From: a virus
IMG/VR virus record: IMGVR_UViG_3300031951_000113
Location: 1-64,000 of that record
Length of the DNA stretch: 64,000 bases
Direction: 5' to 3' (one strand)
The notes beneath the pieces were generated by a model. The model was not told the origin of the DNA, ran no database searches, and worked only from the letters and a program-made list of their open reading frames with translations. How positions within the stretch are numbered: position 1 is the first letter of the stretch; each line of letters opens with the position of its first letter. This document shows positions 28,341-64,000 of the stretch, piece by piece. The position numbers and the translations under genes are program-made.

Positions 28341-28341
28341 A

Positions 28342-30490: not shown

Positions 30491-30498
30491 AAATTATG

Positions 30499-31545: not shown

Positions 31546-31581
31546 ATGTGTTGTGTGTTAGTTGTGTGTTTGTGTTGCCTC

Positions 31582-31594
31582 GGATATGATACCC
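31582..31594 (-). promoter_or_regulatory. Promoter-like element GGGTATCATATCC upstream of MoxR
   Basis: A one-base variant of the recurrent core (TATCAT for TATAAT), about 37 nt upstream of the ATPase ATG and beside the stop codon of the upstream paralogue. It would allow the MoxR-VWA pair to be expressed on its own. Confidence 0.5.
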
Positions 31595-31598
31595 AAGG

Positions 31599-32243: not shown

Positions 32244-32343
32244 TGGTTTCTGTTTCTGTGTCGTTTGGGAGGAAGGGAAACGCTTCCTCCAGTGAATTGT
32301 AGATAGGGAGGACCGTGCCATCCTCGAAGTTTAGTGCGGACAT
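32179..32343 (-). CDS. Possible small overlapping gene (54 aa)
   Basis: A 54-codon frame, MSALNFEDGTVLPIYN..., starts 2 nt after the stop of paralogue A and fills the gap before paralogue B, overlapping it by 65 nt. The first 34 codons look protein-like; the overlapping part may not. Only supported by position and composition. Confidence 0.35.
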
Positions 32344-32345
32344 AA

Positions 32346-33029
32346 CTACGCGGCCTTTAAGAAGGCGGGTGTATAGTAGTTATAGTTGCTTCGCCAATAG
32401 TCGGGCTGGTAACCATCTGCTTTCTGCTTGAACAGCTCAACTGCTAAGGCGTTCTCAATAGCTTCAACACGCAGTTCATCCCTAGTAAGCTGCGGCAAAC
32501 CAATAAACTTGAGCGTGTTGTTCGCGATATTGGTGTGATGCCAGAATTGGGAGCTGATCCAGATCGCACTCTTTCGAGCCAGCCTGTTCTCAATGAGAGA
32601 CTCGTAGTAAAACTGCAGAGATTCTACCCAGTCGGCTCGCCAATCGCTAGGCGTGCTGTTCGGAACGACCCTAGCTACTTCAAGGATCGGGATGCCGTGA
32701 CTGGTATGCAGTATAGGATCAGTCTCAGCCCGTCTATAGAAGTGCTGGTATTTTCGCTCCTGTTCATCAAGATCTCTACGCATGGCGTTGTGCAACGCGG
32801 TAGTCACATACGCAGGTTCATTGGTGTTGTTTCGCACTAGGAAGTAGGGCGAACCATCGAGGGTAATCTTGGCGGCGAATGTGGTATCGAACGCCCAGAA
32901 TCTATCCGGTGTAGCGAGACAGGAGTTACCGACGCTCACGATGCTGGGAGACAGGGTTTCATCGAAGAACGCACGGGCCATGCCCGTGTCGCTGTAATGT
33001 TTCTTAACGCGTTTCTTTTTAGTTTTCAT
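32346..33029 (-). CDS. Paralogue A of the three-member family
   Basis: 227 residues. A basic start (MKTKKKRVKKHYS), then MARAFFDETLSPSIVSVGNS, DTTFAAKITLDGSPYFLVRN, and C-terminal ALAVELFKQKADGY with NYYTPAFLKAA align block by block with the proteins at 28342 and 31599. It is the longest and most divergent member. The ATG overlaps the TGA of a 10-codon minicistron (33026-33058), possibly a translated leader. Confidence 0.6.
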   Translation of the reverse strand: MKTKKKRVKKHYSDTGMARAFFDETLSPSIVSVGNSCLATPDRFWAFDTTFAAKITLDGSPYFLVRNNTNEPAYVTTALHNAMRRDLDEQERKYQHFYRRAETDPILHTSHGIPILEVARVVPNSTPSDWRADWVESLQFYYESLIENRLARKSAIWISSQFWHHTNIANNTLKFIGLPQLTRDELRVEAIENALAVELFKQKADGYQPDYWRSNYNYYTPAFLKAA

Positions 33030-37379: not shown

Positions 37380-39542
37380 CTACGGCTTGGAGATTATCCA
37401 GAGAGTCTTCCGGGCCCTGCCTTCCCTGCGACCCAGCCACGGGGCTGCATTGCTTTTGTGAACTTGAGCCAACCATACGCCCATTTGCGCTGCACTCGCC
37501 CTGGTAGCAAAGAAGTCCTTGCCGATTCGGAGTAGGTCTCCTGAGGTGCCCTCCCACACCTTCGCCCCATCTATGAACAGGATGCTGTCCTTCAGGTGTC
37601 GCAGGGTGTCAATGTCTTCTCGGAGGTGGGTGGCTGCTGCGAGACTCTGGCTGTGAGCCAGGATTTCTGGGTGGTGGAAGGACTTCACTCCATAGCGGCT
37701 TCGTGATGACGATGCCATGATGCAGGGTGGCGGGGTCCACTGGGAGAGCCACCTTAGAAAGAACGGCAGTTCTGCATTGACCTGTGCCTCGATGACGTGG
37801 TTAGGTGGGAAACTTGGATACCATTCTCCGAGTTTAAACAGCATGAGTTTATCTGTGATTGAATTGTCCGTGGTCGGGACGATCGAGAGAGACTCTTCGT
37901 CCGTGTTACAGGTGACGACTACCCTACCCTGCCACGGAAGCTTCGTAGCATCTTGGAACTTTGGATGGTAAAGGATCTCGGTTTGAGCGACGACCTTTTT
38001 AACGTTAGCTGAGAAAGTCTTTCGGCTAGTCCCGTCGATAGTGGCCATACCGTCGTCAACGCTCCACACTCCGACTTCGACTAGCTCCTTATTGAAGTCC
38101 CCTCCCCCTAGCAGGTATCCGCTCGCATCGCTATGTCCCCCTGAAATCTGGCCCATGATGAACGAGGATAGAAAGGTCTTACCCTGTCCCGCGCCTCCGG
38201 CGATGAACACCATTTGACCCGAAAGCAGCCGTCCCGCTCTGCCCGATTCCCAGAATCTTTTTAACCAAGCTAAGAAGTAGTCTCTTTGGCCGACTCCGTT
38301 TTCATCCACGGCGCTATCCCAGATACCAGGCTCCAGCAAAAACTTCTTGAGCCAGGGGAAATCCCCATCCTCTGCAGCGGGCTCCATCATTTTGCGTTGG
38401 CTGGTGTTTAGGTACTTGGCTCCATTGAAGTCTAGAATTTCGACCGGATTGTAGACGAACGGCGCTACGCACTGCACCCGCTTGGTCTGTTGGATTGCGA
38501 CCATAGCCTTATCTACTTCGCTTGCGGTGTCCTTGTTACCGTTCTTGCTGGAAAGCCTGTACAGGACTTTCAACCGACGGCCCATCTCCTCGCTGACGAG
38601 TCGGCACCATAGGTCGTTGTCTTTGACCCAATAGGCGCGTCCGTCATACCAGAAGTCTGCTGCGGCAGCTCCGGTGCGCTCGGCTTCGTATTCCGAAACA
38701 AACTTTTTACCCAGTATCTCTACCCACGGCACAAAAGACTTACCTGCGCGGTCCGAGAAACATATAACCCCGTGCTCTCCCATGACTGCACCGACACGGT
38801 CAATCCCGTCGTCGATCCAGAACAGCGGCACGCGTAGACCTTCTCTAATGTCGCCCTGCAGCTTTCCTGGGAACTGTTTCTCGATCTCGGCTGCGATGCG
38901 ATCGTATGGGATTGAAGTATTGTTATCCGATACCTTCTTGGCTTTAAGCGCGGATTCGGCCAGCCAATGATGGACCACATTACATGAGATCGGAAGGGAA
39001 CCTGGAATCTGCTCCCAGTCGCTACCGATCTCGAACACCTGGTTTGACTTTAAGGAGGTCTCGTCAAAATGTGGCAGCAGTTTCTTTACACGCAGTTCTT
39101 TTGCTGCGTAAGCCATGAAAGACTCGTAGAGACCCTTGTTGTCCAACATCAGCGGCTCTTCGAACTCCCACACCACACGAATCCCCCCGCTGAATGTTTG
39201 AGAGATTCCTGTGGGCTCCAGCCCAGCCGGGCAGTTGTTAGCGAGGATCTGCTTCGCGTCGGCGATGGGAACTACCGAGTCATAGTCGGCAATAATGCCG
39301 TGTTGGTACTTGACCGGATTTGTTTCCGAAACTCTTAGGGATGGGGTGAGCCCCTCTGCAAAAGTATAGAAGACCCAGTCGGTGTTTGGGTCGGAGCACC
39401 AAACCCGATAAGCTTCTTTAGTCGCCCCCGACTGGAGTCCTGGGCGCGGCGGGATACTGGCTTCCCATGGCTTGCCTCCGATGTCGAAGGCGTCGTTGCT
39501 CCTGAGGTTCTTGATTGCGAGATAGGTCGTCTGTGTTGGCAT
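37380..39542 (-). CDS. Primase-helicase (AEP-like N-terminus, SF3-type helicase)
   Basis: 720 residues. N-terminal GIIADYDSVVP (about 83-93) gives the acidic DxD of archaeo-eukaryotic primase-like domains, followed by SGGIRVVWEFE (about 118), where active members usually have His. The C-terminal helicase has Walker A AGGAGQGKTFLSS (about 447) and Walker B GVWSVDDGM (about 495), then VVVTCNTDE as sensor. It should lay primers and unwind DNA for the family A polymerase. A recurrent promoter (39555-39565) lies 13 nt upstream of the ATG. Confidence 0.8.
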   Translation of the reverse strand: MPTQTTYLAIKNLRSNDAFDIGGKPWEASIPPRPGLQSGATKEAYRVWCSDPNTDWVFYTFAEGLTPSLRVSETNPVKYQHGIIADYDSVVPIADAKQILANNCPAGLEPTGISQTFSGGIRVVWEFEEPLMLDNKGLYESFMAYAAKELRVKKLLPHFDETSLKSNQVFEIGSDWEQIPGSLPISCNVVHHWLAESALKAKKVSDNNTSIPYDRIAAEIEKQFPGKLQGDIREGLRVPLFWIDDGIDRVGAVMGEHGVICFSDRAGKSFVPWVEILGKKFVSEYEAERTGAAAADFWYDGRAYWVKDNDLWCRLVSEEMGRRLKVLYRLSSKNGNKDTASEVDKAMVAIQQTKRVQCVAPFVYNPVEILDFNGAKYLNTSQRKMMEPAAEDGDFPWLKKFLLEPGIWDSAVDENGVGQRDYFLAWLKRFWESGRAGRLLSGQMVFIAGGAGQGKTFLSSFIMGQISGGHSDASGYLLGGGDFNKELVEVGVWSVDDGMATIDGTSRKTFSANVKKVVAQTEILYHPKFQDATKLPWQGRVVVTCNTDEESLSIVPTTDNSITDKLMLFKLGEWYPSFPPNHVIEAQVNAELPFFLRWLSQWTPPPCIMASSSRSRYGVKSFHHPEILAHSQSLAAATHLREDIDTLRHLKDSILFIDGAKVWEGTSGDLLRIGKDFFATRASAAQMGVWLAQVHKSNAAPWLGRREGRARKTLWIISKP

Positions 39543-39554
39543 TTTTGTTACTGT

Positions 39555-39565
39555 GATATTATACC
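39555..39565 (-). promoter_or_regulatory. Promoter core GGTATAATATC for primase-helicase
   Basis: TATAAT spans 39563-39558 and the ATG is at 39542, giving a leader of about 8-9 nt. It sits in the short gap after the 90-aa gene. No convincing -35. Confidence 0.65.
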
Positions 39566-39574
39566 CCTGCTAAA

Positions 39575-39847
39575 TTAAAATGGCGGCTCGTCTGGGTGCG
39601 CGTGGCTATCGCCTTCCATTCTTGCTAAAAGTGACATCATTTCTTCAAAAGCAGCGTCAAATTCAGCATGGATGTCTTCTTCGTGAGCTCCAGCGTCTAT
39701 GGCTTTTCGTATAGGGCTTTCTGCGTCATCTACAGCCCAGTTGAAAAATATCTGCTGCCTATCGTACCTAGACCATAAAGGCTTGTTTCTGTATTCGGCT
39801 TTGTGCTCGACCACAGCCCACTTTGAAGCGTATTGTGCGATTGTCAT
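39575..39847 (-). CDS. Small hypothetical protein downstream of polymerase
   Basis: 90 residues from MTIAQYASKWAVVEHK at 39847, which is in an ATGA overlap with the polymerase stop. Acidic, helical C-terminus (DAAFEEMMSLLARMEGD). Unknown; possibly a polymerase accessory by position only. Confidence 0.6.
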   Translation of the reverse strand: MTIAQYASKWAVVEHKAEYRNKPLWSRYDRQQIFFNWAVDDAESPIRKAIDAGAHEEDIHAEFDAAFEEMMSLLARMEGDSHAHPDEPPF

Positions 39848-41595
39848 TTTCCGTATTTGTCCTCGATACTTCCTTCGGCGGCGAGAGGCAGCCCAGGCAT
39901 CCATTCCGGAGTCTCAGACATTATTTCGACAATATTTTTTAGAGATTGTTCAGCCTCTTCTTCGCGAGTTAGACACACTACCTCATCATGGACGGAAAAC
40001 AAAATCGTGTGTCCGGCAGCCTCTATATTAAGTAGCTTTTCAGCAAATACTTCTCTTGCGGTAGCCTGTGTTAAATTTTCTACAAGCAGCCCATACCAGT
40101 ACTTCGAACGCATCATTTTTCCGTTTCGGCACGTGACGGCGGTGAGCCCTCCCCCTGCGTTGCTGGCCGACCAATAGGTGATCTCTCTTCCGCTCGGAAG
40201 CTCTAAGCTGAAGTCGGCCCCCCGCGAAGCGTGCCGCTTCATCGAGGTCTCCAACGCCTTCCACAGAGCCTTAAGCTTTGGGTTTTTGGTCCTGAACAGC
40301 GTTGTCAGTCGCTCTGCCTCGGCCGCCTCTGTCCCTGAGACCATGCTAAACTTGGATGCCGACATACCGTACCCCAAGCCCAAGTTCAGCTGCTTAATCA
40401 TTAACCTTTTTGCAGGGTTTTTACGTAGCGGGTCCGGCCCTTCGTGCAGGCCCCAAGCTCGCGCCTGAGCGTCATAAAGGTCGTCGCTTTGACGGATATA
40501 GTCTATGAGATTTGCGTCAGAAGACAGGAAAGCAAGACAACGAGGTTCAATCTGGCTTAGATCGACCGCTACAATCTTGGTGCCTTTTGGGGCTTTGATG
40601 AGCCCGCGTAGGTCTACCCCGTATAGCTCTTTCCTATTCAAGTTTTGGAGGTTCAACCCTGCATCCCCGCTCCACCGTCCCGTAGAGCCAGCTCCAAAGT
40701 ATTTTAGGGAAAACGGCATCCACCCATCCGGCTTGGTTCTGTTGATAAAAGTGCATACTTTTTTCAACAACATATTGCAGCGTCTCCAATCTCGCATGGC
40801 TCCGACCCAAGGATAAGTTTCTCCGTATTTGTCCTCCCACCGCTGGCACTCTTCGCTATCCACGGCCAGCGACTTTGGAGGCTCGATCCCTACTTTACGG
40901 CATTCTTCTGCCAGCGCTTTTGGGGATAGAATCTTAGCGTCCTCTTCTTTAGCCCAAGGGATGCTTTGTTCCGCGTTCCAGATAAGCCCCTCTAAATGCT
41001 TTTTGTATTGCTGAGCTTTTTCTATGTCCACAGGAACTCCGCGCATTCCTATCTCCCTTGTTTGCCTAGACAGCTCCCTTTCGTGCCACGGCCATTTGTG
41101 TCCGAACTCCAGCCACAGTTTCAGAGTCATCTCAGCGTCCTTGATGGCGTAGTCGGTGACTTCTTTTTTGAACTCCGCCGACATCGTCTCCCACTGCTTG
41201 CCCTTCATGTTGGCTCGGGTCTTTTTGTCTACCTCGATGCCAAGCAAGCTTTGTGATGCTCCAGCCAGCGACCCTGGACGCCCCATATATCTAGCCATGT
41301 CTAGGACATCGACGACCTCTTTAAACCCGAGATCTTTTGGTATGTTCCCCTTCTCCCCTTCAGCCTCTAGAACTGTGAGGTCGTAGCCCGCGTTGGCCAT
41401 GACTATAGTCTTACCTCTCAGGATGCCCCAATCGAAATCTTTTGGGTTTCCTGCGTACTTAAGCCCATCGGACCCCGAAATTGTGAGCATGTAATTTTCG
41501 GAAGCCCGCGTGTACTTCCACGCTCCCATTGTGGTTATACTGAGTTCTGAATCGTAGTAATTTTCAGTATCAAGGGAGTAGATAACATTTTGCAT
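39844..41595 (-). CDS. Family A DNA polymerase with 3'-5' exonuclease
   Basis: 583 residues. Exonuclease motifs: YSLDTE (D9, E11), ANAGYD (about 68) and YAIKDAE (about 150). Polymerase motif A DLSQIEPR (about 345), motif B KRLMIKQLNLGLGYGMS (about 396-412), motif C VHDEV (about 537). It lacks a 5'-3' nuclease, as in T7. In motif B the residue equivalent to E. coli Phe762 is Leu (K-Q-L-N-L-G). In marine phages Leu762 has been linked to slower replication and temperate life style, which fits the integrase here. It lies between the SSB-like and primase genes. Confidence 0.95.
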   Translation of the reverse strand: MQNVIYSLDTENYYDSELSITTMGAWKYTRASENYMLTISGSDGLKYAGNPKDFDWGILRGKTIVMANAGYDLTVLEAEGEKGNIPKDLGFKEVVDVLDMARYMGRPGSLAGASQSLLGIEVDKKTRANMKGKQWETMSAEFKKEVTDYAIKDAEMTLKLWLEFGHKWPWHERELSRQTREIGMRGVPVDIEKAQQYKKHLEGLIWNAEQSIPWAKEEDAKILSPKALAEECRKVGIEPPKSLAVDSEECQRWEDKYGETYPWVGAMRDWRRCNMLLKKVCTFINRTKPDGWMPFSLKYFGAGSTGRWSGDAGLNLQNLNRKELYGVDLRGLIKAPKGTKIVAVDLSQIEPRCLAFLSSDANLIDYIRQSDDLYDAQARAWGLHEGPDPLRKNPAKRLMIKQLNLGLGYGMSASKFSMVSGTEAAEAERLTTLFRTKNPKLKALWKALETSMKRHASRGADFSLELPSGREITYWSASNAGGGLTAVTCRNGKMMRSKYWYGLLVENLTQATAREVFAEKLLNIEAAGHTILFSVHDEVVCLTREEEAEQSLKNIVEIMSETPEWMPGLPLAAEGSIEDKYGK

Positions 41596-41732
41596 AGGTC
41601 TTTACATCTGTTAGCATTGTATTTTATTACGCATTCCTGCAGCCAAGCCCGTCTGTATTCGGGGTTGTGTATACAAAGCCATCTGTGGCAAGCTCGTTCT
41701 GTAGCTTCTAAAAGCTTTTTATCGGAGGACAT
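41535..41732 (-). CDS. Small hypothetical protein overlapping the polymerase start
   Basis: 65 residues from MSSDKKLLEATERA at 41732, Trp/Cys/His-rich in the first half (CHRWLCIHNPEYRRAW). It overlaps the first 61 nt of the polymerase in another frame. The polymerase start cannot move because its first exonuclease motif is at residue 9, so the overlap is real if this is a gene. Possibly translational coupling. Confidence 0.5.
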   Translation of the reverse strand: MSSDKKLLEATERACHRWLCIHNPEYRRAWLQECVIKYNANRCKDLCKMLSTPLILKITTIQNSV

Positions 41733-41742
41733 TTTAGGGGAG

Positions 41743-41827
41743 TTCGAAGTGGGGTGATCAACAGAGGGAGCCAATGCAGTTAACCCTAGTCGCAGAACAT
41801 CTCTGCGCTCTACGCCCCCACTTCGAA
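41743..41827 (-). ncRNA. Three-way-junction-like structured RNA element in the replication operon
   Basis: A perfect 12-bp closing stem, TTCGAAGTGGGG (41743-41754) with CCCCACTTCGAA (41816-41827), encloses 61 nt. Inside are CGCAGA-ACATC-TCTGCG (41790-41806) and a weaker AGGG/CCCT stem near 41765-41786. It lies just after the SSB-like gene stop and before the ATG at 41732, so it would be in the transcript. It may be a regulatory leader, processing site, attenuator or a small RNA. No known class recognised. Confidence 0.55.
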
Positions 41828-41837
41828 ATTTCTTGTT

Positions 41838-42641
41838 TTAGGAATTCAACTTCAGGATCGAGGCAAAGAACTCAGCCGCTTCCGGAGTGTGCCTACCTGC
41901 AAACGTAGCACGTGGCGCATACCATGAGTTACGCGCGTTCTTCCTGATCTCGCTGCCCACAAGGTAGTGCCCTGTATGCAGACCGTTTCGGAGAGTCATC
42001 GCCGAGTCGCTAATGATTCGTTTCCCAAGGGCCGTGTAACTGGAGCTAGCCACAGTCCACATTGCGACCGCATAAAGAGCGTCCGCGAACTGGTGCGGGA
42101 ACAGGTCTGTAAGTTCGTCCGGAGCTTCGATATTCTCAGGCAGCTTGACCGCAAACGCAATGTGGGCGATCTCCTGAAAGTAGTTCTCGTCACCGTATTG
42201 CAACGAGCCCCCGGCCTCACGGACTTGTTCAGCAGTGTCGTAGACCTCTGGCTGCTCTGTGTTGTCGCCTTCACCCCAAGCGGTCTTTTTCTGGTATTGC
42301 TTCCTGAGTTGCAGCGGAGTCAGGTCCAACGTGTTTTGGGGCTTACCGTCCGACAGCACGAACGTCTTCTCAAACACAATGCTGCCAGGTTGGAAGTTGT
42401 CTGCCAGCGAGCCTACTTTCTGCACCAAGTTGAGTCGTGGAAGCTTGATGTCACGCATAGAGACTTCTCCAACGATGCCTGAAGCCACGGCTGGCCCTTT
42501 AGGCACGGCTACCGCGTTGTTGAATCCCTGGTCTACTACAGCCAGCGAGCTTTCTGTCGTGTCACTAGGATATGATACCTCCTGCGCGACTGTTTCTTGT
42601 TTCTTTGTTGGGGGCTTAGCTGCGAATGATATGGACGCCAT
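41838..42641 (-). CDS. Putative ssDNA-binding or replication accessory protein
   Basis: 267 residues from MASISFAAKPP at 42641 (an upstream in-frame extension overlaps the helicase gene and has low-complexity Asn/Lys composition). The middle, DIKLPRLNLVQKVGSLADNFQPGSIVF, resembles a phage protein family usually found next to DNA polymerase. A role as ssDNA-binding protein is inferred from position between helicase-nuclease and polymerase. Acidic C-terminal tail typical of gp2.5-like SSBs is not present, so I hold this loosely. Confidence 0.5.
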   Translation of the reverse strand: MASISFAAKPPTKKQETVAQEVSYPSDTTESSLAVVDQGFNNAVAVPKGPAVASGIVGEVSMRDIKLPRLNLVQKVGSLADNFQPGSIVFEKTFVLSDGKPQNTLDLTPLQLRKQYQKKTAWGEGDNTEQPEVYDTAEQVREAGGSLQYGDENYFQEIAHIAFAVKLPENIEAPDELTDLFPHQFADALYAVAMWTVASSSYTALGKRIISDSAMTLRNGLHTGHYLVGSEIRKNARNSWYAPRATFAGRHTPEAAEFFASILKLNS

Positions 42642-42678
42642 ATGTTTTGGATGTTTGGATTTTTGGTTGTTTGGGTTG

Positions 42679-45126
42679 TTAGTTTTTCTCTTGCTTGAGG
42701 ACAAATGTGGTGCCCTCTTGCTTGAGACAGCCTGCGTCCGTAAGTCGGTCGACAAGCTGTTGTTTTGCTTGGCCTTTCTTCCCTTTTGGGACCGACTCAG
42801 CAAAATAGTCTTCTAGGTCCGGCACACTTACTTTTGTGCAGGCCGCTAGAAAATCTGTGAGCGACACAGTATCTTTAACTGCGTCGTATGCTTGAATAGC
42901 TGATGTAATTTTTCTTGGGAGCTTTTGCTCTTGCAGACGGAACCCAGGAAGCTCCCACCCCTCGTTAACAGCCCTTTCTCTGGATAGCTCTCTAATCCCT
43001 GCAGCCCAGCTCTCCATTATGGGGGCCAACTTCAAAAGTTGCGCCAGCTCCTCAGAGTCGGCCTTGTCTCCGGTAATATCGTTTGGAACCTCAAAACCTG
43101 TCTCGGGGTATTTATTGGCAATAAGAAGCGCCTTCTTAGCTAGTGCTGGGCACTTGGCTTGGTTTCCGCAGTAGTCGCATACCCCTGCTTGCGGGTTAAA
43201 GATCTTCCCGTCTTTCGCTCTCTTAATAATTGTTTGGAGCCGAAGTTGCATCTCAGGGAGTTGCTCCCGTTTAAATACCGCGTAGCTAACCTCATCACGC
43301 ACCGGCATAAGGAAGTAAAACTCAATAGTGTCTACATCAAACTTTTGAAATGCACCAATTGTGTAAGCCCAGGCTTGGGTGTTTATCTCCGCGTCTTCGA
43401 CAGCTCCGTAACCTGTTTTGTGGTCTACCAATCGCATCAGTTTTTTCGGAAACCCAAGACAAAGATCGACGGTTCCAAAAGTGCTTTCTCCACCACCCAA
43501 ATCTATGTCGAATCGTACCTCTTTGTGTTTAAAAGAGTGGCCTGATTCCAGTTGTGCTACATAGTCGTAGCACTTTTGCGCGATGGCTTGTTCGTCTGGG
43601 TCGACAAGCCTAGAAATATCTTCTGCTTCGAGAGCCTCGTGGATTCTAGTTCCGCGCTCTGCCGCCCAGTTAGTCCCCTCTCTTGGGAGGTATCCTGGGC
43701 AAACTTCAAAATTCTTTAGTGCTGAGGGGCTATGTTCTGCGTGAGCTCGCGAAGCGTGATCTATTTCTGGCATTGGTGATGTTACTGTGTTGTCAGCTGG
43801 GTAATATACCCCAGCTCCGTCTTTAGACAACGAACTTTTAGATCCGTTCAAAATTTCTTGTGCTTTAATTTTTTCTTTTACAGATTTCGCTACTTTCTCT
43901 TCAACGGTGCCCTCGGCGACTAAAATTCTTTGAATGGCTGGGCTTTTTCCCCCCGCTCTATGGATTCTCCCTAGAACTTGCACCATAGATTTTGCGTTAA
44001 AGCTCGGGCTTATAAGTGCGGTTCTCGGCCTTTCTCCGGTTGTGTCGTGTAGAGAGACTCCCACTCCCCCAGCCTCCATGTTGCAAAGTATCACTCTTGA
44101 GGTGTTATTTTGGAACCTCAAGATAGAAACTTCCCTTTCTTTTTCAGACTGTTTCCCGCGTATTACAGAAACTGTGCTTTCTGTTTTTTGCAGTCTATCT
44201 AAAATAGCGTTTATTGTGGCGTCAAAGTTGACAAATACCGCAACATTGCGGTGTTCGTCGTTAACAATCTCCTCAATTGTATTACAAATAAGAGGCACTT
44301 TGTATAACTCCACTGCTTGCCGTGCCCTGAGTTGAGCAACCAAAGCTTTTGCTGCTGGGTTGTCGCTGTCGTCGGCCATCTCTTTTTTCAACCCCTCAAG
44401 CTCAAGCTCCATTTCCTCGTACAGCTCTTTAATTTTACCGTCGTCCGAGAAGTCTAGCGGGTCATCTATAATGAAGTTGTCCGCGAAGTGCCCTTTCATG
44501 TCGTCTACAGTCATTCTGCCGCCCTTATTTGGCATTATTTGGTTGTGGATTTTCTCTAAAGCCCCCGTTTTCCGTCTGTCGAACTCCATTGCGCCCCATG
44601 GATTAGGTCGACACCCGTGCGATCGGCACCAGTTCCAAAATTTAGGCAGCTCGAACAGCCCTAATAAGAACCCAACCCCCCTCAATTCGGTTGGGTCGTC
44701 TGCGATTGTCGCCGAAAGCATCAAGTTGTAGTGGCTTTTTGATGCAATCAGCATTTTTGTGTTTTGAGCGGAGGGGCTTTTGCACCTATGGGCCTCGTCC
44801 CACACTATTAAATGCTCTTCGTTTAGGCCCCACTCCCATTTTTTACTGTTCCATGCGCCTAGACCAGACTTTCCAGTGCGTAACTTTTCGTAATTTATCA
44901 CGGCAGCCGAGGGAACCCCCTGTTCTTCTAGCTCTTTTCTCCAAGCGGGGATAACTGCTTTTGGGCACACTACAACGACTGGTCTACCGAGCTTTTTGGC
45001 GACCATTATTGCGCATAATGTTTTTCCAGTCCCCGTCGCTGAGGCATCTAAAGCCGCCTTGTTCTTTACAAGAGAACTATACAGCAGATTTATGTGCGAC
45101 TGTTGTACTGGGTACGGAGTTTTCAT
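42679..45126 (-). CDS. SNF2-type helicase fused to a PD-(D/E)XK nuclease
   Basis: 815 residues. Residues 1-440 are an SF2/SNF2 helicase: [10 protein letters not shown] (about 29), [21 protein letters not shown] (DEAH, about 110), [20 protein letters not shown] and [11 protein letters not shown]. From residue 452 (M, at 43773) a RecB/DUF2800-like nuclease follows: [35 protein letters not shown] (D-x-K catalytic), and a [13 protein letters not shown] Cys cluster. These are two separate genes in many phages. It lies in the replication operon between the SSB-like and NrdR-like genes. Confidence 0.85.
43799..43812 (-). promoter_or_regulatory. Palindromic promoter-like element at the helicase-nuclease joint
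   Basis: In minus sense it reads GGGGTATATTACCC inside the larger inverted repeat AGCTGGG/CCCAGCT, about 25 nt before the internal ATG that begins the nuclease domain. The bases before that ATG (ACAGTAACA then ATGCC) also match the primase leader. An independent nuclease could be made from here. Confidence 0.5.
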
Positions 45127-48978: not shown

Positions 48979-49012
48979 TTGACATGTTTTATTGTTACTT
49001 GGATATTATACC
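48979..49012 (+). promoter_or_regulatory. Late promoter for TerL, leaderless
   Basis: TTGACA at 48979-48984 and GGATATTATACC at 49001-49012, with TATTAT at 49004-49009. The ATG at 49016 is 6 nt after the -10, where transcription should start. The -10 to ATG layout matches the leaderless minus-strand promoter at 24493. Confidence 0.6.
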
Positions 49013-49015
49013 TTT

Positions 49016-50809
49016 ATGAGTTCTATAACCGTAAACCCACCCGCACCCTCTTCAGACGTAGAACTGCAGTGGGGTGTTTGGTGGAAGAAAACTGACAATC
49101 AACTCATGCGGCATTTGAAGGCGTTCCGGTTAGGGCCTTCAGAGATCCCAGGCGGTCTTGGTAGAGCGGGGCATTTCAAAGCCATCTCGGACATGCTTTG
49201 GGGGCCGAACAACAAAAGGAAAAAATTTGTGTGGCACCCGTGGGCGGAACGAATGCTCGAAGAAGCTTGCGAGGCTATGGAAAAACCAAAAAGTTTTTTG
49301 GCGATAGCTGGGGCCGCCAGCACGGGCAAATCTGATTTTGGGGCCGTGTGGGCAATCGTAAATTTTTTATGCTTGCCAAGCAAAACAATGGTGCTCGTGA
49401 CGTCGACATCTTTGAAAGATTCTCGGAAGCGCATTTGGGGAGCTATCCGAGATTATTGGCAGGCGATACCAGGAAGAGCCCCGGGCAAGCTCGTGGACTC
49501 CGTCGGATTGATTCGTTTTGATATGGGGACGAAAGATTCGACTGGTTCAGATCGCAGTGGAATTTCTTTGATCGCTGCCGAAAAAAGTAAGGACAAGGAA
49601 GCCTACGGAAAATTGATCGGGTTTAAGGCCCCTCGCGTTTTGCTGATCGCGGACGAGCTCCCTGAGTTGGGCGAGTCTGTTGTTGGAGCGGCGTATTCCA
49701 ACTTGGCGGTGAATCCTTGGTTTCAGATGGTCGGTCTCGGAAACCCTGCAAGCTACTACGACGCTTTTGGCGTCTTCGCAAAACCTAAAGCTGGCTGGGC
49801 CTCGATAAACTCAGAGAGCGAGGAATGGGAGACTGACCGGGGGAAGTGTTTGAGGTTGGACGGCGAAAAGAGCCCTAACATTTCTGCTGGTTCGACGCTG
49901 TATCCGTGGCTGATCACTGCAGATTTTCTGGAGCAGCAAAGAGAATCTTTGGGTGAAAACTCTAACGCGTATTGGCGAATGATTCGCGGCTACTGGAGCC
50001 CCACTGGTGCGGCTGATGGGATATATTCCGAAGCGGACATTATAAAATTTAAAGCGGATCAACCCGCGATCTGGCTGACCCCTCCGGTTAAGATTGCTGC
50101 TTTAGACCCGGCTTTTACAAATGGCGGCGATCGAACGGCTCTTTATTTTGGGTGGTACGGAGAGAATGGAGACGGGCTGAAAACTTTGTGTTTCGACCGA
50201 GTTGAGTTTTTACGTGAGGACGTAACCAAGACTTCAGTACCTAGATCCTTTCAAATAGTGCAAACTTTTAGAGACCGCTGCATCAGTAATGGTGTGGCTC
50301 CTGAAAATGCTTGTTTTGACGCCAGCGGGGCCGGGAAGCCTTTTGGGGACATTGTGGCTAGAGAGTGGTCTAATAGGGTGGTTCGAATTGATTTCGGCGG
50401 TCAAGCTAGCGAACTCCCAGCTAGTGTTTCTGACCCCACACCTTCAAACGAGCGATACGCTAACAGAGTCACTGAGATCTGGTTCGGCGCTAAAGAACTG
50501 ATGAGGACGGGGCAGATACGCGGAGTTACAGCTACCCTCGCTAGAGAGTTATGCGCTAGGACTTATTCCACTAAAAAAGGGTCTAACATGAGATTGGTAG
50601 CTGAGCCTAAGCCAGATATGAAAATGAGGATTGGGAAATCCCCCGATGAGGCCGACGCTGCGTTAATGTTAGTGGCGTTGTGTCGCGAAAAGTTTGGGTT
50701 TGGGGCGGATAGAAAGTCTGAAACTAAAAACAGTCCAACTGCTCGCAATTTAGGGGGCCTATTTAGCCGATTGAATCGCGCCAACTTGCCTAAAACCTTG
50801 TTAAGATAA
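49016..50809 (+). CDS. Terminase large subunit
   Basis: 597 residues from MSSITVNPPAP at 49016. ATPase: AGAASTGKS (about 96-104, Walker A), VLLIADELPE (about 208, Walker B). RNase H-like nuclease: IAALDPAFTNGGDRT (about 360), NACFDASGAGKPF (about 433) and SPDEADAALML (about 545). It packages DNA into the procapsid through the portal. It opens the late operon right after attP, which is the usual arrangement in temperate podoviruses. Confidence 0.95.
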   Translation: MSSITVNPPAPSSDVELQWGVWWKKTDNQLMRHLKAFRLGPSEIPGGLGRAGHFKAISDMLWGPNNKRKKFVWHPWAERMLEEACEAMEKPKSFLAIAGAASTGKSDFGAVWAIVNFLCLPSKTMVLVTSTSLKDSRKRIWGAIRDYWQAIPGRAPGKLVDSVGLIRFDMGTKDSTGSDRSGISLIAAEKSKDKEAYGKLIGFKAPRVLLIADELPELGESVVGAAYSNLAVNPWFQMVGLGNPASYYDAFGVFAKPKAGWASINSESEEWETDRGKCLRLDGEKSPNISAGSTLYPWLITADFLEQQRESLGENSNAYWRMIRGYWSPTGAADGIYSEADIIKFKADQPAIWLTPPVKIAALDPAFTNGGDRTALYFGWYGENGDGLKTLCFDRVEFLREDVTKTSVPRSFQIVQTFRDRCISNGVAPENACFDASGAGKPFGDIVAREWSNRVVRIDFGGQASELPASVSDPTPSNERYANRVTEIWFGAKELMRTGQIRGVTATLARELCARTYSTKKGSNMRLVAEPKPDMKMRIGKSPDEADAALMLVALCREKFGFGADRKSETKNSPTARNLGGLFSRLNRANLPKTLLR

Positions 50810-55498: not shown

Positions 55499-56689
55499 AT
55501 GCCTTTCGATATTGATCATCTTTTGGTGAATGAGGCTAACCGTATCGGTCCTGACATTTACCATAAATCCCTTAACACGTCACCTTGGCTTAAGCTTTGC
55601 AAAAAAGCTACATGGCCTGATGAGATGGGCACTTCCATTTCCGTGATGACCTATCAGCGTTCGCTTCCTACTGCAGCTCAGGCGTGGTCTGATGTAGGTT
55701 TCAATACTGGCTCGGGCTCTAACTGCGTTCCTTCTGCCACTGTAGTTGAGTTCGCTCAGACCCTTCGTAACTTCAACCTTCAGCAGACTGCTATCGAGTC
55801 TCCGAAGATTTGCGTAAACGACCTTCGCTTCACTATGAAGCGCAAAGAGCAACTCTCCAACATCTTCCGTATCCTCACTGAGAATACAAGCTATGCGTGG
55901 ATTGAGCGTTATCGTAGTGAATACAGCCGCTTGGCTGAAAACAAAGTGCTTCCTGTCACTGTTTCTACGACGGCGCAGTTGGTGTTCGGCACTGGCGGCA
56001 ACTTCCCCAACGTTCCCGTTGGAGCTGCTCCTAGCCGCTTGACTCAGGGCATCCTTGATCGCTTGTATATGCGCCTCATTCGCGATGGTGCTGGCAACAA
56101 TCCTTTCGGCCGCGAGAATGGCCGTCCTCAGTTCGCCATCATCACTAGCTCGGAGCAGAGCAACGGCCTCATTCTTGAGAACACCGCTGTTCGCGAAGAC
56201 TACCGCTACAGCACCAAGGTTAGCGAGCTCCTCGCTCCTCTTGGCGTTGAGCGCGCCTACAAGGGCTTCTACCACCTCATCGACGACTTCGCACCTCGTT
56301 GGAACTGGAGTGGCAGCGCCTGGGTCCGTGTTCCGCATTACGTTCGTAGCACTACTGGCACCTTTAATACTGGTTCCGGCCGTTGGGACATCAATCCTGA
56401 CTACCTTACTGCTACGTACGAAGATACCTTCGTGTTCCACACTGATGTGTTGGAGTGCATGATTCCCGCCCCAATCACCGCTCCTGGCGGCAACACTAAG
56501 TTCGACCCTGTCTCGTACATGGGCGAGTTTAAGTGGCTCAACATCCGTGACACTGCCGACAATCCTGACGGCACCATCGGATATTTCCGCGCTGTTCTTA
56601 GCTCTGGAAGTAAGCCCGTGTTCCCTGAATGGGGCTATGTGATTCGTCACGCACGTTGCGATTCCTCGCTCGGACTCCTCAGCTGCTAA
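55499..56689 (+). CDS. Major capsid protein
   Basis: 396 residues, starting MPFDIDHLLVNEAN. It directly follows the scaffold. Codon use is visibly different from neighbours: C-ending, translationally optimal codons, as expected for the most highly expressed gene. No HK97 motif can be named by eye; assigned from position, size and codon bias. A 390-codon antisense frame is its shadow. Confidence 0.85.
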   Translation: MPFDIDHLLVNEANRIGPDIYHKSLNTSPWLKLCKKATWPDEMGTSISVMTYQRSLPTAAQAWSDVGFNTGSGSNCVPSATVVEFAQTLRNFNLQQTAIESPKICVNDLRFTMKRKEQLSNIFRILTENTSYAWIERYRSEYSRLAENKVLPVTVSTTAQLVFGTGGNFPNVPVGAAPSRLTQGILDRLYMRLIRDGAGNNPFGRENGRPQFAIITSSEQSNGLILENTAVREDYRYSTKVSELLAPLGVERAYKGFYHLIDDFAPRWNWSGSAWVRVPHYVRSTTGTFNTGSGRWDINPDYLTATYEDTFVFHTDVLECMIPAPITAPGGNTKFDPVSYMGEFKWLNIRDTADNPDGTIGYFRAVLSSGSKPVFPEWGYVIRHARCDSSLGLLSC

Positions 56690-57646: not shown

Positions 57647-59962
57647 ATGCCTGTAAAATCTATACAGTTTGGAGTGCCTAGCACTAGCCCGTCACCCCCA
57701 ACTACAGGAGTGAAGTTGTTTTATGGGGCTGATGGCGTCTTTAAAACTGTAGCGCCTGATGGGTCTGTAGAAGAAATATCTGGAGGAGGCGGTGGCGGCG
57801 GTAACGCAAGTGTAGTTTTTGGCCCCACCGCACCGGAGAACCCGTATCAAGGTCTAAGGTGGGTAAATACAAGTGATGGTAGAATTTACGATTGGGTTGA
57901 TTCTTTTTGGGTGGAGCTAACTGGTGTTGGTGGTGGAGGAGGCGCTCAAGGAGTTCAGGGTTCTCAAGGGCTACAAGGCCCAAGTGGGGGAGCTCAAGGA
58001 GACCAGGGCGTGCCAGGTGTGCCGGGGCCGCAAGGAGCCCAAGGAGATCAGGGTTTTCAAGGAGATCTCGGCGTACAAGGAGCACAGGGAGACCAAGGTT
58101 ACCAAGGCCCCCAAGGAGATCAGGGTTTTCAAGGAGATCTCGGCGTACAAGGAGCACAGGGAGACCAAGGTTACCAAGGCCCCCAGGGAGATCAGGGTTT
58201 TCAAGGAGATCTCGGCGTTCAAGGGGCGCAGGGAAGTCAGGGGGCGCAGGGATTTCAGGGAGACCAAGGATCAGATGGCGTGCAAGGAGACCAAGGTAGT
58301 TTTGGGCAGCAAGGCTACCAAGGCGAAACTGGAGCTGGCTTTCAAGGGTTCCAGGGCCTGCAAGGTTCTGTTGGGCTGCAGGGGCTTGTCGGGACTCAAG
58401 GCATTACTGGAGCTCAGGGCGCTCAAGGACGCCAGGGGAGCCAAGGTGATCAAGGCGGGTCTGGAGCTCAAGGATACCAAGGGCAGGGGTTTCAAGGTTC
58501 TTCGGGCCCTCAAGGACTACAGGGCTCTCAGGGGTTGCAAGGCAGCCAAGGAGCTTCTGGGGTTAACGGAACTAACGGGTTTCAAGGTTTCCAAGGTACG
58601 GCAGGCCCTCAAGGAATTTCTGGTTTGCAAGGTTTTGTAGGCGCGCAGGGTTCCCAAGGAAGCCAAGGACTTCATGGGCCGCAGGGTTTTGTTGGGGTGC
58701 AAGGCCCAGCAGGCAATCAAGGCGGTATAGGTTCACAAGGCTCTCAAGGACGGCAGGGAAACCAAGGCGAACAAGGCAATTTAGGTTTTCAGGGCGCTCA
58801 AGGTAACCAAGGTTTTTCTGGGCCTCAGGGCTCCGTCGGCACGCAAGGTGCCGTAGGCAGTCAGGGCTCCGTTGGAGTGCAAGGTTCTCAAGGAAACCAA
58901 GGGTCTTCTGGGCCTCAGGGCTCCGTTGGCACGCAAGGAGCCGTCGGCAGCCAAGGCGTAGTAGGGGCTCAAGGCAGCACAGGGCTTCAAGGCTCTGTTG
59001 GTCAACAAGGTTCTGTCGGCGTGCAAGGCCCAGCAGGCAATCAAGGCGGTATAGGTTCACAAGGCTCTCAAGGACGGCAGGGAAACCAAGGCGAACAAGG
59101 CAATTTAGGTTTTCAGGGCGCTCAAGGTAACCAAGGTTTTTCTGGGCCTCAGGGCTCCGTCGGCACGCAAGGAGCCGTCGGCAGCCAAGGCGTAGTCGGG
59201 GCTCAAGGCAGCACAGGGCTTCAAGGCTCTGTTGGTCAACAAGGTTCTGTCGGCGTGCAAGGAACTGTAGGTAACCAAGGTGTAGTCGGGGCTCAAGGCA
59301 GCACAGGGCTTCAAGGCTCTGTTGGTCAACAAGGTTCTGTCGGCGTGCAAGGAACTGTAGGTAACCAAGGTGTAGTCGGGGCTCAAGGCTCTCAAGGACG
59401 GCAGGGAAACCAAGGGTTTCAAGGAGATGTAGGCGCTCAAGGAGCCCAAGGCCGCCAAGGTTCTAATGGGTTACAAGGGTCTGTTGGGTCGCAAGGCTCT
59501 ACAGGCAGCCAAGGCAGTACTGGGTCGCAAGGTTCTGTCGGACAGCAGGGTTCTGTAGGCGTGCAGGGCGGAGTTGGAAGCCAAGGCACACAAGGCGTTC
59601 AAGGCTCTCAAGGATCTCAGGGCAAGTCTATTATAGTTTCTAGGTCAAACTCCGTAATATCAGCTGGCGCTTTGAGTTTGGATTTAAGTTCTTCTTCTGT
59701 GTTTGTCTCAACTGTTACTTCCGCTGTAACAGTTTCTTTTGTTAACCCCCCGGCTTCTGGAACTGTTTGTTCTTTTATAGTTCAGCTTAAAGGCAACGGC
59801 ACTCAGTATAGTGTTACCTGGCCTGCTTCTGTACGATGGGACCAAAATATCGTTCCAGTGCTGACTTGGACTGCTAATAGAACTGATAATTTGTCGTTTT
59901 TCACCCATGATGGGGGTGTTACGTATTTTGGTTCTTTGATTGGTCAAAATTACTATCCATGA
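57647..59962 (+). CDS. Collagen-like G-X-Q tail fibre with β-sandwich tip
   Basis: 771 residues. Residues 1-95 form a non-collagenous head containing a GGGGGGG linker and WVNTSDGRIYDW. About 95-660 are G-X-Q triplets. The last ~110 are a β-rich tip (KSIIVSRSNSVISAG... to the end). It encodes the layout head, triple-helix rod, tip. Internal near-duplications of ~78 bp (three copies, 58020-58250) and of longer blocks (58690-59430) show expansion. It is the second fibre of this type; the first is at 1-3159. Confidence 0.85.
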   Translation: MPVKSIQFGVPSTSPSPPTTGVKLFYGADGVFKTVAPDGSVEEISGGGGGGGNASVVFGPTAPENPYQGLRWVNTSDGRIYDWVDSFWVELTGVGGGGGAQGVQGSQGLQGPSGGAQGDQGVPGVPGPQGAQGDQGFQGDLGVQGAQGDQGYQGPQGDQGFQGDLGVQGAQGDQGYQGPQGDQGFQGDLGVQGAQGSQGAQGFQGDQGSDGVQGDQGSFGQQGYQGETGAGFQGFQGLQGSVGLQGLVGTQGITGAQGAQGRQGSQGDQGGSGAQGYQGQGFQGSSGPQGLQGSQGLQGSQGASGVNGTNGFQGFQGTAGPQGISGLQGFVGAQGSQGSQGLHGPQGFVGVQGPAGNQGGIGSQGSQGRQGNQGEQGNLGFQGAQGNQGFSGPQGSVGTQGAVGSQGSVGVQGSQGNQGSSGPQGSVGTQGAVGSQGVVGAQGSTGLQGSVGQQGSVGVQGPAGNQGGIGSQGSQGRQGNQGEQGNLGFQGAQGNQGFSGPQGSVGTQGAVGSQGVVGAQGSTGLQGSVGQQGSVGVQGTVGNQGVVGAQGSTGLQGSVGQQGSVGVQGTVGNQGVVGAQGSQGRQGNQGFQGDVGAQGAQGRQGSNGLQGSVGSQGSTGSQGSTGSQGSVGQQGSVGVQGGVGSQGTQGVQGSQGSQGKSIIVSRSNSVISAGALSLDLSSSSVFVSTVTSAVTVSFVNPPASGTVCSFIVQLKGNGTQYSVTWPASVRWDQNIVPVLTWTANRTDNLSFFTHDGGVTYFGSLIGQNYYP
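58020..59430 (+). repeat. Internal duplications in the second fibre gene
   Basis: Three ~78-bp copies lie at about 58020-58250; a ~340-bp block near 58690 recurs near 59020; shorter AGGCAGCACAGGGCTTCAAG blocks recur at 58970, 59205 and 59300. All are in frame. Confidence 0.85.
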
Positions 59963-61074: not shown

Positions 61075-62469
61075 ATGGCTAGTCCTCTAATTAAAATAAA
61101 ACGTGGCTCTACAGCCCCAAGCTCAACGCTTTCTGCTGGCGAGTTTGCTATCGATCAAAGCAACCAGAACCTGTATCTAGGTATTGATGACGGAGTATCC
61201 GTTAGCAATGTGATTATCGCTGGTGAAGGCACTTTTGCTACTAAGACTTTTGTAGCGGACGCCATTGAAGCTGTTACAGACACTCTCGGCACAATGTCTA
61301 CTCAAGACGCTGATAGTGTAGCTATTACTGGAGGGACTATTGATGGAACCGCTATTGGGCAGTCTTCGGCTTCGACAGGCATATTTACAGGGATCGAGTC
61401 CACTGACCCTAACTTGACTAACAAGTTTGTGGGTCCGACTGAGTTTACTTGGGGCCTTAAAGGCAACGGCGTAAATCCCGTGTATGTAAGTAGCACGCTT
61501 GATCTTTCGATTGGCTCTGGCATAATTGAACTGGGGACTTCGGGCTACGGCGCGGTTCGCGGCCTTGGCGAGCCCGCTAACGATAACGACGCGGCCCGTA
61601 AAAAATATGTGGACGACAAAGTGGCCGCTTTAGGGAGCGTTTTCCGCTATAAAGGAACTGTAGGCCAGTTTTCAAACGCCCCAGGCAACCGATTGCAAGA
61701 TCTCCCCGATCAAAACGCTGGAGCGTATTATCTGGTAGATTTCGTCCCGTCCCAGAATGGCGAGGCTCTTGCCTTTGAAGATGGGAACGGCGGCTCTTGG
61801 TTTGCCAAAGTTGGAGACGCTTTTGTTATGACGTCTCAGAGCGGTTGGCAAAAACTTGACAACGTTGACGTTGTGGTTAGCGGAACTGATAACGAAGTTA
61901 CCGTAACTGGGGATGAAAACACAGGCTACACTGTTGCGTTGGCGACTGCTTTCAAGTCTAGAGTTTCTAACGTAGAGCTCAAGACGCAAAACATTGACCT
62001 AGCCTCTACATCTGCCGGGGCCACTAAAGTAAACGGTAATGTCGATGTGGCTGGCAGGCTGTCTTCTTGTAACGAGAACTTTGTTGTTAACACCAGCAGA
62101 GTTGATTTTAGCAACCAGGCTGTTTACATCGGCGGTTCTGGGGCAAAGCTTGTAGGCGTTGATGATAGTGGAGCCACCCCCTACATCGAAAACATAAATC
62201 ACCGAGGCGCTTTTAAATTGTCTTCTGCGGGAGTATTCAACTCTCCTGATTTTGAGGTAACCAACGGCGGAGAGGTGCGGTTGAACCAGGCTTGTAATTC
62301 AGCTGCGGTTCAGTCTTACGGGACATTTAATATCTCGTCTGGAGGGGGACAATTCACTGACTCCGGGTCTCCGATTGCTTTAAAGGCAAATGGAAACCTC
62401 GTTGGGGTCAATAATAATTTCGGGGTTCCGTACATCGAAAACTTTATTATTGACGGCGGAAATTATTAA
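61075..62469 (+). CDS. Tail fibre protein
   Basis: 464 residues. The N-terminus (SPLIKIKRGSTAPSSTLSAGEFAID, then LYLGIDD) is the attachment module of phage fibres in the hyaluronidase/tropism-determinant group. The rest is β-rich and repetitive with Asn/Gly turns, ending in FIIDGGNY. ATG preceded by the AATAATACACC motif. Confidence 0.75.
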   Translation: MASPLIKIKRGSTAPSSTLSAGEFAIDQSNQNLYLGIDDGVSVSNVIIAGEGTFATKTFVADAIEAVTDTLGTMSTQDADSVAITGGTIDGTAIGQSSASTGIFTGIESTDPNLTNKFVGPTEFTWGLKGNGVNPVYVSSTLDLSIGSGIIELGTSGYGAVRGLGEPANDNDAARKKYVDDKVAALGSVFRYKGTVGQFSNAPGNRLQDLPDQNAGAYYLVDFVPSQNGEALAFEDGNGGSWFAKVGDAFVMTSQSGWQKLDNVDVVVSGTDNEVTVTGDENTGYTVALATAFKSRVSNVELKTQNIDLASTSAGATKVNGNVDVAGRLSSCNENFVVNTSRVDFSNQAVYIGGSGAKLVGVDDSGATPYIENINHRGAFKLSSAGVFNSPDFEVTNGGEVRLNQACNSAAVQSYGTFNISSGGGQFTDSGSPIALKANGNLVGVNNNFGVPYIENFIIDGGNY

Positions 62470-62482
62470 TGTTCAATATTTA

Positions 62483-62513
62483 CCCGCTTCAGGTATTTAC
62501 TACCTGAGGCGGG
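62483..62513 (+). terminator. Strong hairpin between fibre genes
   Basis: CCCGC-TTCAGGTA pairs with TACCTGA-GGCGGG around a 5-nt loop (12 bp, one mismatch or bulge). Followed by CCATTTCT. It is either a weak terminator or an mRNA-processing hairpin. Confidence 0.65.
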
Positions 62514-62525
62514 CCATTTCTATAA

Positions 62526-63161
62526 ATGGCTTCTACTAAAATAGTACCTAAAAAGTCTGTACAGCAGGGCAAAGTGCCTGAAGCTGGCGATCTATCCTCT
62601 GGAGAGATAGCCATTAATTATACTGATAAGAAACTTTACGGAAAGAACCCTAGTTCTGGACTTGTTGTTGAGATTGGGGGGCTATCTGCCCACTACCACG
62701 ATCAGCTTTTTTCGGTAAACAGAGTTTCTGACTTTGAGGTGTCAGACTCTGGAAGTGTTGTGGTAACTAACGGGTCTGGAGTTTCCACTTCACTTTTACC
62801 CCTTAGTTCAGTCAACAGGGTATTATCACTCCCTGACAAAAATGGCACTTTAGCTACGCTCGACGATGTCCCCGCTTCAAGCACCATCAATGACCTTGAT
62901 GAGATGTTTAACTCTGCCAGAGCCACCTACTACCACGAGGTCGGCTATACGGCGGGCGGGGATGTCTCGGCCATCGAGGTGTATGCCACTAGCGCGAAGG
63001 CCACGCACCTTTACTCACGCGCATTCACTTACAACGCCTCGGGAAATATCACCCAGGTCCTTACCACCGATCGCCAAAATTCCGGCGTCTCTCTTACTAA
63101 AACAATTTCTTACAACGGGTCAGGCGACATCGCCACCATGACTCGCTCTTACTCGCTTTAA
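62526..63161 (+). CDS. Tail fibre protein, probably chimeric
   Basis: 211 residues. The N-terminus (KIVPKKSVQQGKVPEAGDLSSGEIAIN) is a fibre attachment module like that of the preceding gene. From about residue 130 base composition shifts from A/T-rich to GC-rich (near 62900), so the C-terminal receptor-side portion (ATYYHEVGYTAGGDVSAIEV) looks acquired from another genome. Confidence 0.65.
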   Translation: MASTKIVPKKSVQQGKVPEAGDLSSGEIAINYTDKKLYGKNPSSGLVVEIGGLSAHYHDQLFSVNRVSDFEVSDSGSVVVTNGSGVSTSLLPLSSVNRVLSLPDKNGTLATLDDVPASSTINDLDEMFNSARATYYHEVGYTAGGDVSAIEVYATSAKATHLYSRAFTYNASGNITQVLTTDRQNSGVSLTKTISYNGSGDIATMTRSYSL

Positions 63162-63164
63162 TTT

Positions 63165-64000
63165 ATGGCTAATATCTCAGTTACAACGGATACTAATTAC
63201 AGCACGCTTACGATCGCCAATGGCGACACAATTAGCGTGGACTCGCTCGCCACTCTCACGATCGACACAAACACCGTTAATATCGCAGGTATTAGTTTCA
63301 CTGGCACGGGCGGTAAGGTTGTAGTCAATAACCCCTCCACCACCACTCCGATTTTCGTGAATGTCACAGGCTCGATCCCTGTGAGTGTAGACGGCGAGCT
63401 TCGCGCTTTTGGCGCACCTATCCAGATCGGCACGGGGGATGGCAGCACGGCCACCTTTGCGCTGCCCACAGGCGCGGGCGGCTCGAAATACGATAACATC
63501 AGCGTGTGCTGGGTCGCTCGCGGCGACACTTTCCGCGACGGCACATCCTACCTCCGCACCTACGCCGAGGTGGATTCTTTCACAAATCTCGTCACGGCCT
63601 ACCAAGACCATTTCACGCACGACACGGTGGCGAACACGATCACCTTCCGCAGCGCGCCGTCAGCCGGGGCCGCGATCACGATTCCGAATATCCAAATCCG
63701 CGATGCAGGCGGCTCCACAGGGATGACTTTCTCTGGCCCCACGGAGTTCAACTACACCTCGATCGCTCGGTTCGATAGCATGTCGAACAACAGCAACACG
63801 CAGGAACTTACGCTCCGCAACTGCGGGGTGCGCCACGGCGGCGGAAGCGGCACACTGAATTGGCGGCGCGCACCCGGCACCATCACCATGACAGGCACCG
63901 CATTCTTGTGCGAGAACGCTTCGCTCGATTGCTTCGCGTGCGTCAATATCGTTTTCAAAAACTGCATCTTCACAGGCAAAAATACTTCCAGCGTTTTTTC
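63165..64000 (+). CDS. GC-rich tail fibre/receptor-binding protein, runs off window end
   Basis: Open frame from ATG 63165 to the last base (278 codons), starting MANISVTTDTNYSTLTI. β-solenoid-like pattern of short Gly/Thr/Ile strands, Cys at several positions late. GC is much higher than in the first 62.9 kb, consistent with recent acquisition. Being incomplete at its 3' end, the gene's true length is unknown. It is the most likely host-range determinant at this end. Confidence 0.7.
   Translation, partial: MANISVTTDTNYSTLTIANGDTISVDSLATLTIDTNTVNIAGISFTGTGGKVVVNNPSTTTPIFVNVTGSIPVSVDGELRAFGAPIQIGTGDGSTATFALPTGAGGSKYDNISVCWVARGDTFRDGTSYLRTYAEVDSFTNLVTAYQDHFTHDTVANTITFRSAPSAGAAITIPNIQIRDAGGSTGMTFSGPTEFNYTSIARFDSMSNNSNTQELTLRNCGVRHGGGSGTLNWRRAPGTITMTGTAFLCENASLDCFACVNIVFKNCIFTGKNTSSVF

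Follow-up and report, generated by a model that had tools for sequence, protein, structure and literature searches.

Why the composition of a viral genome should change in the middle of a tail fibre gene was considered for a 64,000-base stretch of DNA from an IMG/VR virus record (hereafter, the window). The first-pass annotation had reported that the DNA becomes GC-rich, with different codon use, from about position 62,900, both within a fibre gene and throughout the gene that follows, and had taken this sharp boundary to reflect a recent recombination of receptor-binding modules. As the second of these genes is cut by the end of the window, genes beyond that point were read from the tail of the same record. 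The features considered are listed in the table. The term RBP is used as shorthand for the product of the second gene, a putative receptor-binding protein.

Table. Position and properties of the features considered
Feature	Coordinates	Strand	Comment
Source record			68,914 bases; the window corresponds to bases 1-64,000 and cuts through the gene at its end
Fibre gene	62526-63161	+	211 aa
Resident fibre N-terminal part	62526..62876	+	117 codons; GC3 0.38; codon usage in line with the window backbone; without DNA similarity to G001/G002
Left breakpoint of the outer module	62877..62880	+	At the codons for S-TINDLDEMF; from G001/G002 alignment and change-point
Putatively imported fibre C-terminal 93-codon domain	62880..63161	+	GC3 0.67; proposed to dock the next protein
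Putative receptor-binding protein (RBP) gene	63165-66401	+	1,078 aa; ORF; the window holds 63165..64000 only
Start of the inner exchanged core	63360..64000	+	Core is RBP codons 66-905, 63360 to ~65880 of the record
Small gene	66403-66672 of the record		Directly after the RBP gene
Holin gene, then endolysin gene	After the small gene		GTA_holin_3TM family; CHAP domain

The virus is known only from environmental DNA, and its phage group seems to be without isolates. Many of the proteins searched from this phage matched no Pfam family, and two scans of genome contigs for a host or a prophage found none. The 605-aa protein encoded at 48992-50809, in the packaging or structural region, gave no tblastn match among 50,697 phage records, and the holin matched no protein in 21 backbone relatives. 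A 3,105-aa protein (9643-18960), also without a Pfam match, has 27-31% identity over ~1,000 aa in four backbone relatives. On the minus strand, 21029-22285 encodes a 418-aa protein in which a family 2 glycosyltransferase domain precedes a methyltransferase domain, while 29294-30490 encodes a DUF2201 putative metallopeptidase with a VWA-like domain. Two long collagen-like genes, with triplet repeats rich in Gln-Gly, are found at 1-3159 (1,052 aa, open at the window start) and 57647-59962 (771 aa); two other contigs of the same phage, G008 and G011, end or break in these repeats.

When GC content was plotted in 300-base windows, the rise was present, with values of 0.42-0.45 at 62,300-62,900 followed by 0.48-0.53 at 62,800-63,300 and by 0.57-0.62 in most windows from 63,200; values of 0.53-0.67 were seen up to ~66,300 and of 0.41-0.48 after 66,400. 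Plain GC is, however, a blunt signal, because the gene preceding the fibre gene already reaches 0.53-0.54 at 61,300-61,800. Codon use was likewise altered as first described, with GC3 increasing inside the fibre gene between the first 117 and the last 93 codons. In the RBP gene, GC3 was 0.58 over codons 1-65, 0.76 over codons 66-905 and 0.65 over the rest, and in the small gene that follows, 0.38. Because GC3 is 0.67 and then 0.58 at the start of the island and 0.76 in the core from near 63,350, the shift occurs in two steps. The mid-gene change is thus real, although the single sharp border near 62,900 is better described as a moderate step at 62,880 and a strong one at ~63,350. Similarly, almost all, rather than all, of the next gene is GC-rich, with the island reaching ~66,380, or 2.4 kb past the window.

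A two-border change-point search returned a segment spanning 62,856-66,372, with a log-likelihood ratio of 120 vs. a maximum of 11.7 in 40 shuffles. Borders within 2 log units fell at 62,844-62,931 for the start and at 66,288-66,384 for the end. Inside the island, an inner segment of 63,420-65,913 was obtained (ratio 10.8; shuffles were applied to the outer search alone).

Such a shift could be intrinsic to the gene, reflecting amino-acid content or high expression with no transfer having taken place. GC3 values of 0.57-0.71 were indeed found in nine of the 34 other window genes examined, at 26,717-33,029, 37,380-42,803 and 55,499-56,689, including the putative capsid gene and a replication block, and in the RBP core, GC2 is raised as well, to 0.55. 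Because of these other GC-rich genes, and because a sister phage of the window's phage has a GC content of 58%, composition alone is weak evidence. Yet, the shift is strongest at third positions and starts in mid-gene, at the very place where DNA identity to a second viral contig, G001, goes from none to 99%, making an intrinsic origin very improbable.

This contig was identified when relatives of the fibre protein and of the RBP were sought among viral contigs. The record was compared to G001 (21,608 bases, GC 0.559) and to a second such contig, G002 (28,520 bases, GC 0.598), by blastn, considering matches of at least 80 bases. Matches were limited to 62,880-66,641 of the record in the case of G001 and to 62,882-66,641 in the case of G002, with high identity being confined to the module while the remainder of the genomes differed. 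The composition borders and the DNA homology borders, each computed independently, coincide. As such, the recombined module suggested by the GC boundary is supported, the composition border within the fibre gene also being a sharp homology border. Relatives carrying the gene with uniform composition, named in the first-pass annotation as a refutation, weigh in the opposite direction: the gene suits the GC-rich contigs G001 and G002 that carry it, yet misfits the window's phage.

In a fine alignment, near-identity to G001 extended from 62,880 to 66,379, ~7 codons short of the stop of the long gene, at ~96% DNA identity overall; the small gene beyond this point is homologous at ~70%. At the protein level, the full-length RBP is 96% identical to that of G001 and 92% identical to that of G002, while the fibre C-terminal domain is 97% identical in G001, 83% in G002, 74% in G003 and 60% in G006. 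These comparisons suggest that it is largely right to consider the island as a block of ~3,500 bases swapped with otherwise very different viruses.

Alternatively, the contig may have been assembled from two phages joined at the fibre gene; the data are, after all, metagenomic, and contigs of this phage do break in the nearby collagen-like repeats. However, G008, which has a separate IMG/VR identifier, is 100% identical to the record over 59,059-68,914, through both junctions. In addition, the borders respect the reading frame and gene ends, and analogous borders are seen in G002/L098 and other pairs. A chimeric assembly is hence hardly credible. Outside the module, G011 is 99.97-99.99% identical over 13,288-58,810.

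Within the module, differences from G001 were unevenly distributed, numbering 6 of 480 bases at the left end, 116 of 2,520 in the core and 4 of 499 at the right end (core vs. ends, 116/2,520 vs. 10/979; Fisher p 2e-8). Those in the core were also clustered (dispersion p 6e-6), pointing to further exchange within the core. The G002 alignment provided a second level of structure, with identity being mostly 69-85% at 62,880-63,360, ~97% at 63,360-65,880 and mostly 66-77% thereafter (flanks ~72%). Because the G002 kind shares the core alone at ~97% and the G001 kind shares the whole module, the exchange is nested. The strong GC rise coincides with the ~2.5 kb core that is 97% identical in G002.

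We consider it probable, at roughly 0.8, that the GC island represents an adhesion cassette of recent acquisition, comprising the fibre C-terminal domain and the downstream RBP-type protein, obtained from a GC-rich phage. The backbone of G001 is distantly related to that of the window's phage, with 27-51% amino acid identity for genes other than the fibre and small genes, such as 41% for the 605-aa protein encoded at 48992 and 51% over the 92 aa held by the contig of a 748-aa protein encoded at 51608. G002 and the window have in common only the fibre genes and the small gene, along with two matches that are short and weak. In terms of synonymous codon use, the fibre C-terminal domain and the two ends of the RBP fit the G001 table best, the core fits the G002 table best, and all parts of the island fit the G001/G002 tables better than the table of the window's AT-rich genes. 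This suggests a GC-rich G001-like phage as the source of the module and a G002-like phage as the source of its core.

Transfer is likely to have been into the window's phage. Composition does not fix this direction because the sister phage G012, with backbone proteins up to 86% identical to those of the window, itself has a GC content of 58.5%, vs. 48.6% for the window's phage. In most of the shared genes of G012, GC3 is 0.72-0.81; the phage of the window has retained GC-rich genes at 26,717-33,029 and 37,380-42,803. Changes private to the core of the window consist of 25 GC>AT and 17 AT>GC substitutions, with no clear AT drift. The closest sisters found for the window's own phage are at ~70-86% amino acid identity.

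Sister phages sharing the same backbone but carrying different modules were also seen, namely G002/L098, L110/L140, L111/L122, L155/L160 and G013/G014, with replacement of the core in the first four pairs. L097, which is part of G002, and L098 are 95% identical until 9 bases before the RBP start, at which point unrelated cores begin; similarity resumes at 93%, one base ahead of the codons of a conserved segment (RBP codon ~917) that reads YIANNIDG in the window (residues 918-925). This segment was located by alignment columns, given that a pattern motif search placed it in only 40 of 80 loci. The L110/L140, L111/L122 and L155/L160 pairs present the same kind of core replacement, with right borders elsewhere. 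Conversely, L151/L166, L158/L169 and L110/L119 have the core in common but not the DNA ahead of it. In G013/G014 (96% identical over 10.6 kb), similarity also stops in the fibre region, save for a 121-base stretch at 97.5%, which takes in the opening bases of the 62526-like gene, and a later 246-base stretch at 71%. The small gene that follows the RBP gene encodes a probable membrane segment and has a counterpart in the same position in several of these phages (L097, L098 and L101); its product is identical in L097 and L098, whose RBP cores differ.

Following removal of 13 near-duplicate loci, which left 55, left homology borders were listed. Fifteen of 39 lay no more than 15 bases from the RBP start, as compared to ~1.2 expected if borders were uniform over 1,001 positions, and another 11 lay at -291 to -220, corresponding to the start of the domain that ends the fibre protein. 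These 39 borders are descriptive, having been read from BLAST block ends in overlapping and related, and so not independent, pairs. Right borders differ between pairs. All-against-all sorting of the cores into families chained too loosely for family counts and was not used.

The part of the RBP that lies behind the core is conserved. Its last 242 residues (the ~240-residue C-terminal domain) are 53-54% identical in G003 and G006, where they follow unrelated cores. An alignment scan of viral contigs with this domain yielded 111 relatives, of which the best 80 were kept. Among these best 80, most ORFs measure 600-1,360 aa, with the domain placed close to the C-terminus; 11 of the ORFs are cut at the 5' end, and in 12 that are complete at the 3' end, the domain match is followed by more than 60 residues. 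Although a model of the whole RBP reached a pLDDT of 30 and was not used, the C-terminal domain was modelled from a 69-sequence alignment at a mean pLDDT of 85.8. The model comprises a beta unit (residues 22-101), an alpha/beta unit (residues 110-209) and a low-confidence C-terminal helix. The conserved segment starts at model residue 112, where the two units meet, so that the right border of the G002/L098 exchange would coincide with a predicted domain border.

In searches for named relatives, the RBP matched no Pfam or PHROG family, gp38 included, and no PDB sequence. The C-terminal domain matched no PHROG, and its model found no PDB match at E <= 0.001, the weak hits being mostly FN3-like; nine matches were found in BFVD, the best being an unnamed protein of an uncultured phage. 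Membership in DUF4249 was not accepted, Pfam hits being weak in 20 of the 69 C-terminal domains (best, 3.7e-5) and absent in that of the window. DUF1573 was hit by two of the 69. Among 50,697 phage records, megablast with positions 62,000-64,000 and tblastn with the partial RBP found none. As to the database search proposed in the first-pass annotation for the protein encoded at 63165, tblastn of the full RBP against the same records returned one, Curvibacter phage PCA1, matched in the C-terminal part only (39%). Counting this search, three tblastn searches with different members of the C-terminal domain family each returned this one record of the 50,697. In PCA1, a siphovirus with a long, non-contractile tail (PMC9763317), the gene for the domain directly follows a gene annotated as tail fibre.

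The fibre protein begins with a conserved N-terminal fibre segment, followed by a linker that runs up to the breakpoint. This segment is similar to the N-terminus of T4-type gp37 and of other fibres. In PHROG, residues 3-51 matched distal fibre and baseplate proteins of the gp37 type; the matches to gp37 distal fibre proteins (E 4e-4 to 1e-3, residues 4-51 only) were weak, as were tblastn matches to Edwardsiella phage gp37 (E 9e-3), and concerned the N-terminal segment alone. The C-terminal (partner) domain of the fibre protein was sought with a profile (E < 1e-3) at the 61 distinct loci with enough upstream sequence and was detected at 44 of them, in an ORF upstream of the RBP-like gene. After one profile iteration, the count rose to 47, with 43 of these ending no more than 12 bases from the RBP start and a reversed-sequence control giving 0/703; a recognised partner domain was absent from 14 of the 61 loci. 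The N-termini found in front of the partner domain vary among loci.

The imported 93-codon domain might instead cap the downstream protein or assist its folding as a chaperone, being exchanged together with its client for that reason. The co-exchange seen here suits either role, and a fibre and its cognate chaperone are shared by distant Alteromonas phages (PMC10579305). Still, the domain forms the C-terminal part of a fibre protein and is encoded upstream of the protein that would be its client, and the varied N-termini ahead of it suggest a structural carrier. A chaperone role is judged unlikely.

In the adhesion cassette that we favor, the first half of the fibre protein, being resident, would remain with its own virion. 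The imported C-terminal domain would in turn offer a docking site to the separately encoded RBP. With both contact halves imported in one piece, the pair would stay compatible. Finer exchange would replace only the central RBP core between conserved ends, most simply by recombination at those ends, namely around the RBP start and in the C-terminal domain. Receptor binding by the module is suggested by the order of the genes, by the resemblance of the fibre N-terminus to gp37 and by the pattern of exchange.

The gp37/gp38 distal tail fibre locus of T-even phages, reportedly addressed by Tetart et al. in 1998, offers a known parallel. As in that locus, a fibre protein with a gp37-like N-terminus precedes a separately encoded protein, and the cassette is most likely a plug-in receptor-binding unit that travels together with its docking site, in the manner of this locus. 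According to PMC6027323, gp38 lies at the tip of gp37, binds the receptor and has a variable part flanked by conserved N- and C-terminal regions. By contrast, the downstream protein considered here, at 1,078 aa, is not gp38-like by any search made, and the cassette was therefore not assigned to the gp37/gp38 system. Moreover, its carriers include unrelated, uncultivated phages rather than members of one phage family.

Module exchange between unrelated phages is already in print (PMC10579305; PMC10408124). Alteromonas phages A5, V22 and P24, belonging to distant families with otherwise unrelated genomes, share a host-recognition module of a fibre and a partner (PMC10579305), much as the carriers of the cassette considered here do. 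In the Alteromonas phages, the proteins are mostly 35-67% similar and the transfers are regarded as old, whereas here, DNA identity is 95-99%, breakpoints are sharp and core exchange is nested. In addition, no DUF4376 chaperone was detected among nine proteins scanned here. In E. coli phages, conserved stretches before and after a variable binding domain were proposed as recombination hotspots (PMC10408124). Conserved flanks around a variable part are common to both cases. There, however, the flanks are formed by the last part of an anchor domain and by a non-coding motif lying downstream. In the present cassette, a conserved C-terminal protein domain makes up the right flank, and the C-terminal domain of the preceding gene belongs to the left one.

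No description of this cassette was found in the literature searched by titles and abstract openings, a slight indication that it is undescribed. More broadly, and tentatively, since we place the odds a little short of even, the loci compared here may represent a widespread class of adhesion cassettes that has yet to be described, carried by largely uncultivated phages. Each would consist of a fibre ending in a short shared domain and a large protein with a fully replaceable core before a conserved, as yet unnamed C-terminal domain. Both conserved ends would act as standard connectors, allowing cores that differ in specificity to be plugged into unrelated virions at two levels, i.e., as the core alone or as the core together with its docking domain.

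Exchange of receptor-binding modules is a main route by which phages change hosts, yet is often seen only as old, blurred similarity. Here, exchange was recent enough for borders to be placed at the level of the base and at two nested levels. The two conserved connectors, namely the 93-residue domain that ends the fibre and the ~240-residue C-terminal domain of the RBP, render the idea of interchangeable connectors testable. In this manner, the locus illustrates how viruses of this kind can exchange parts with a probable role in host recognition.
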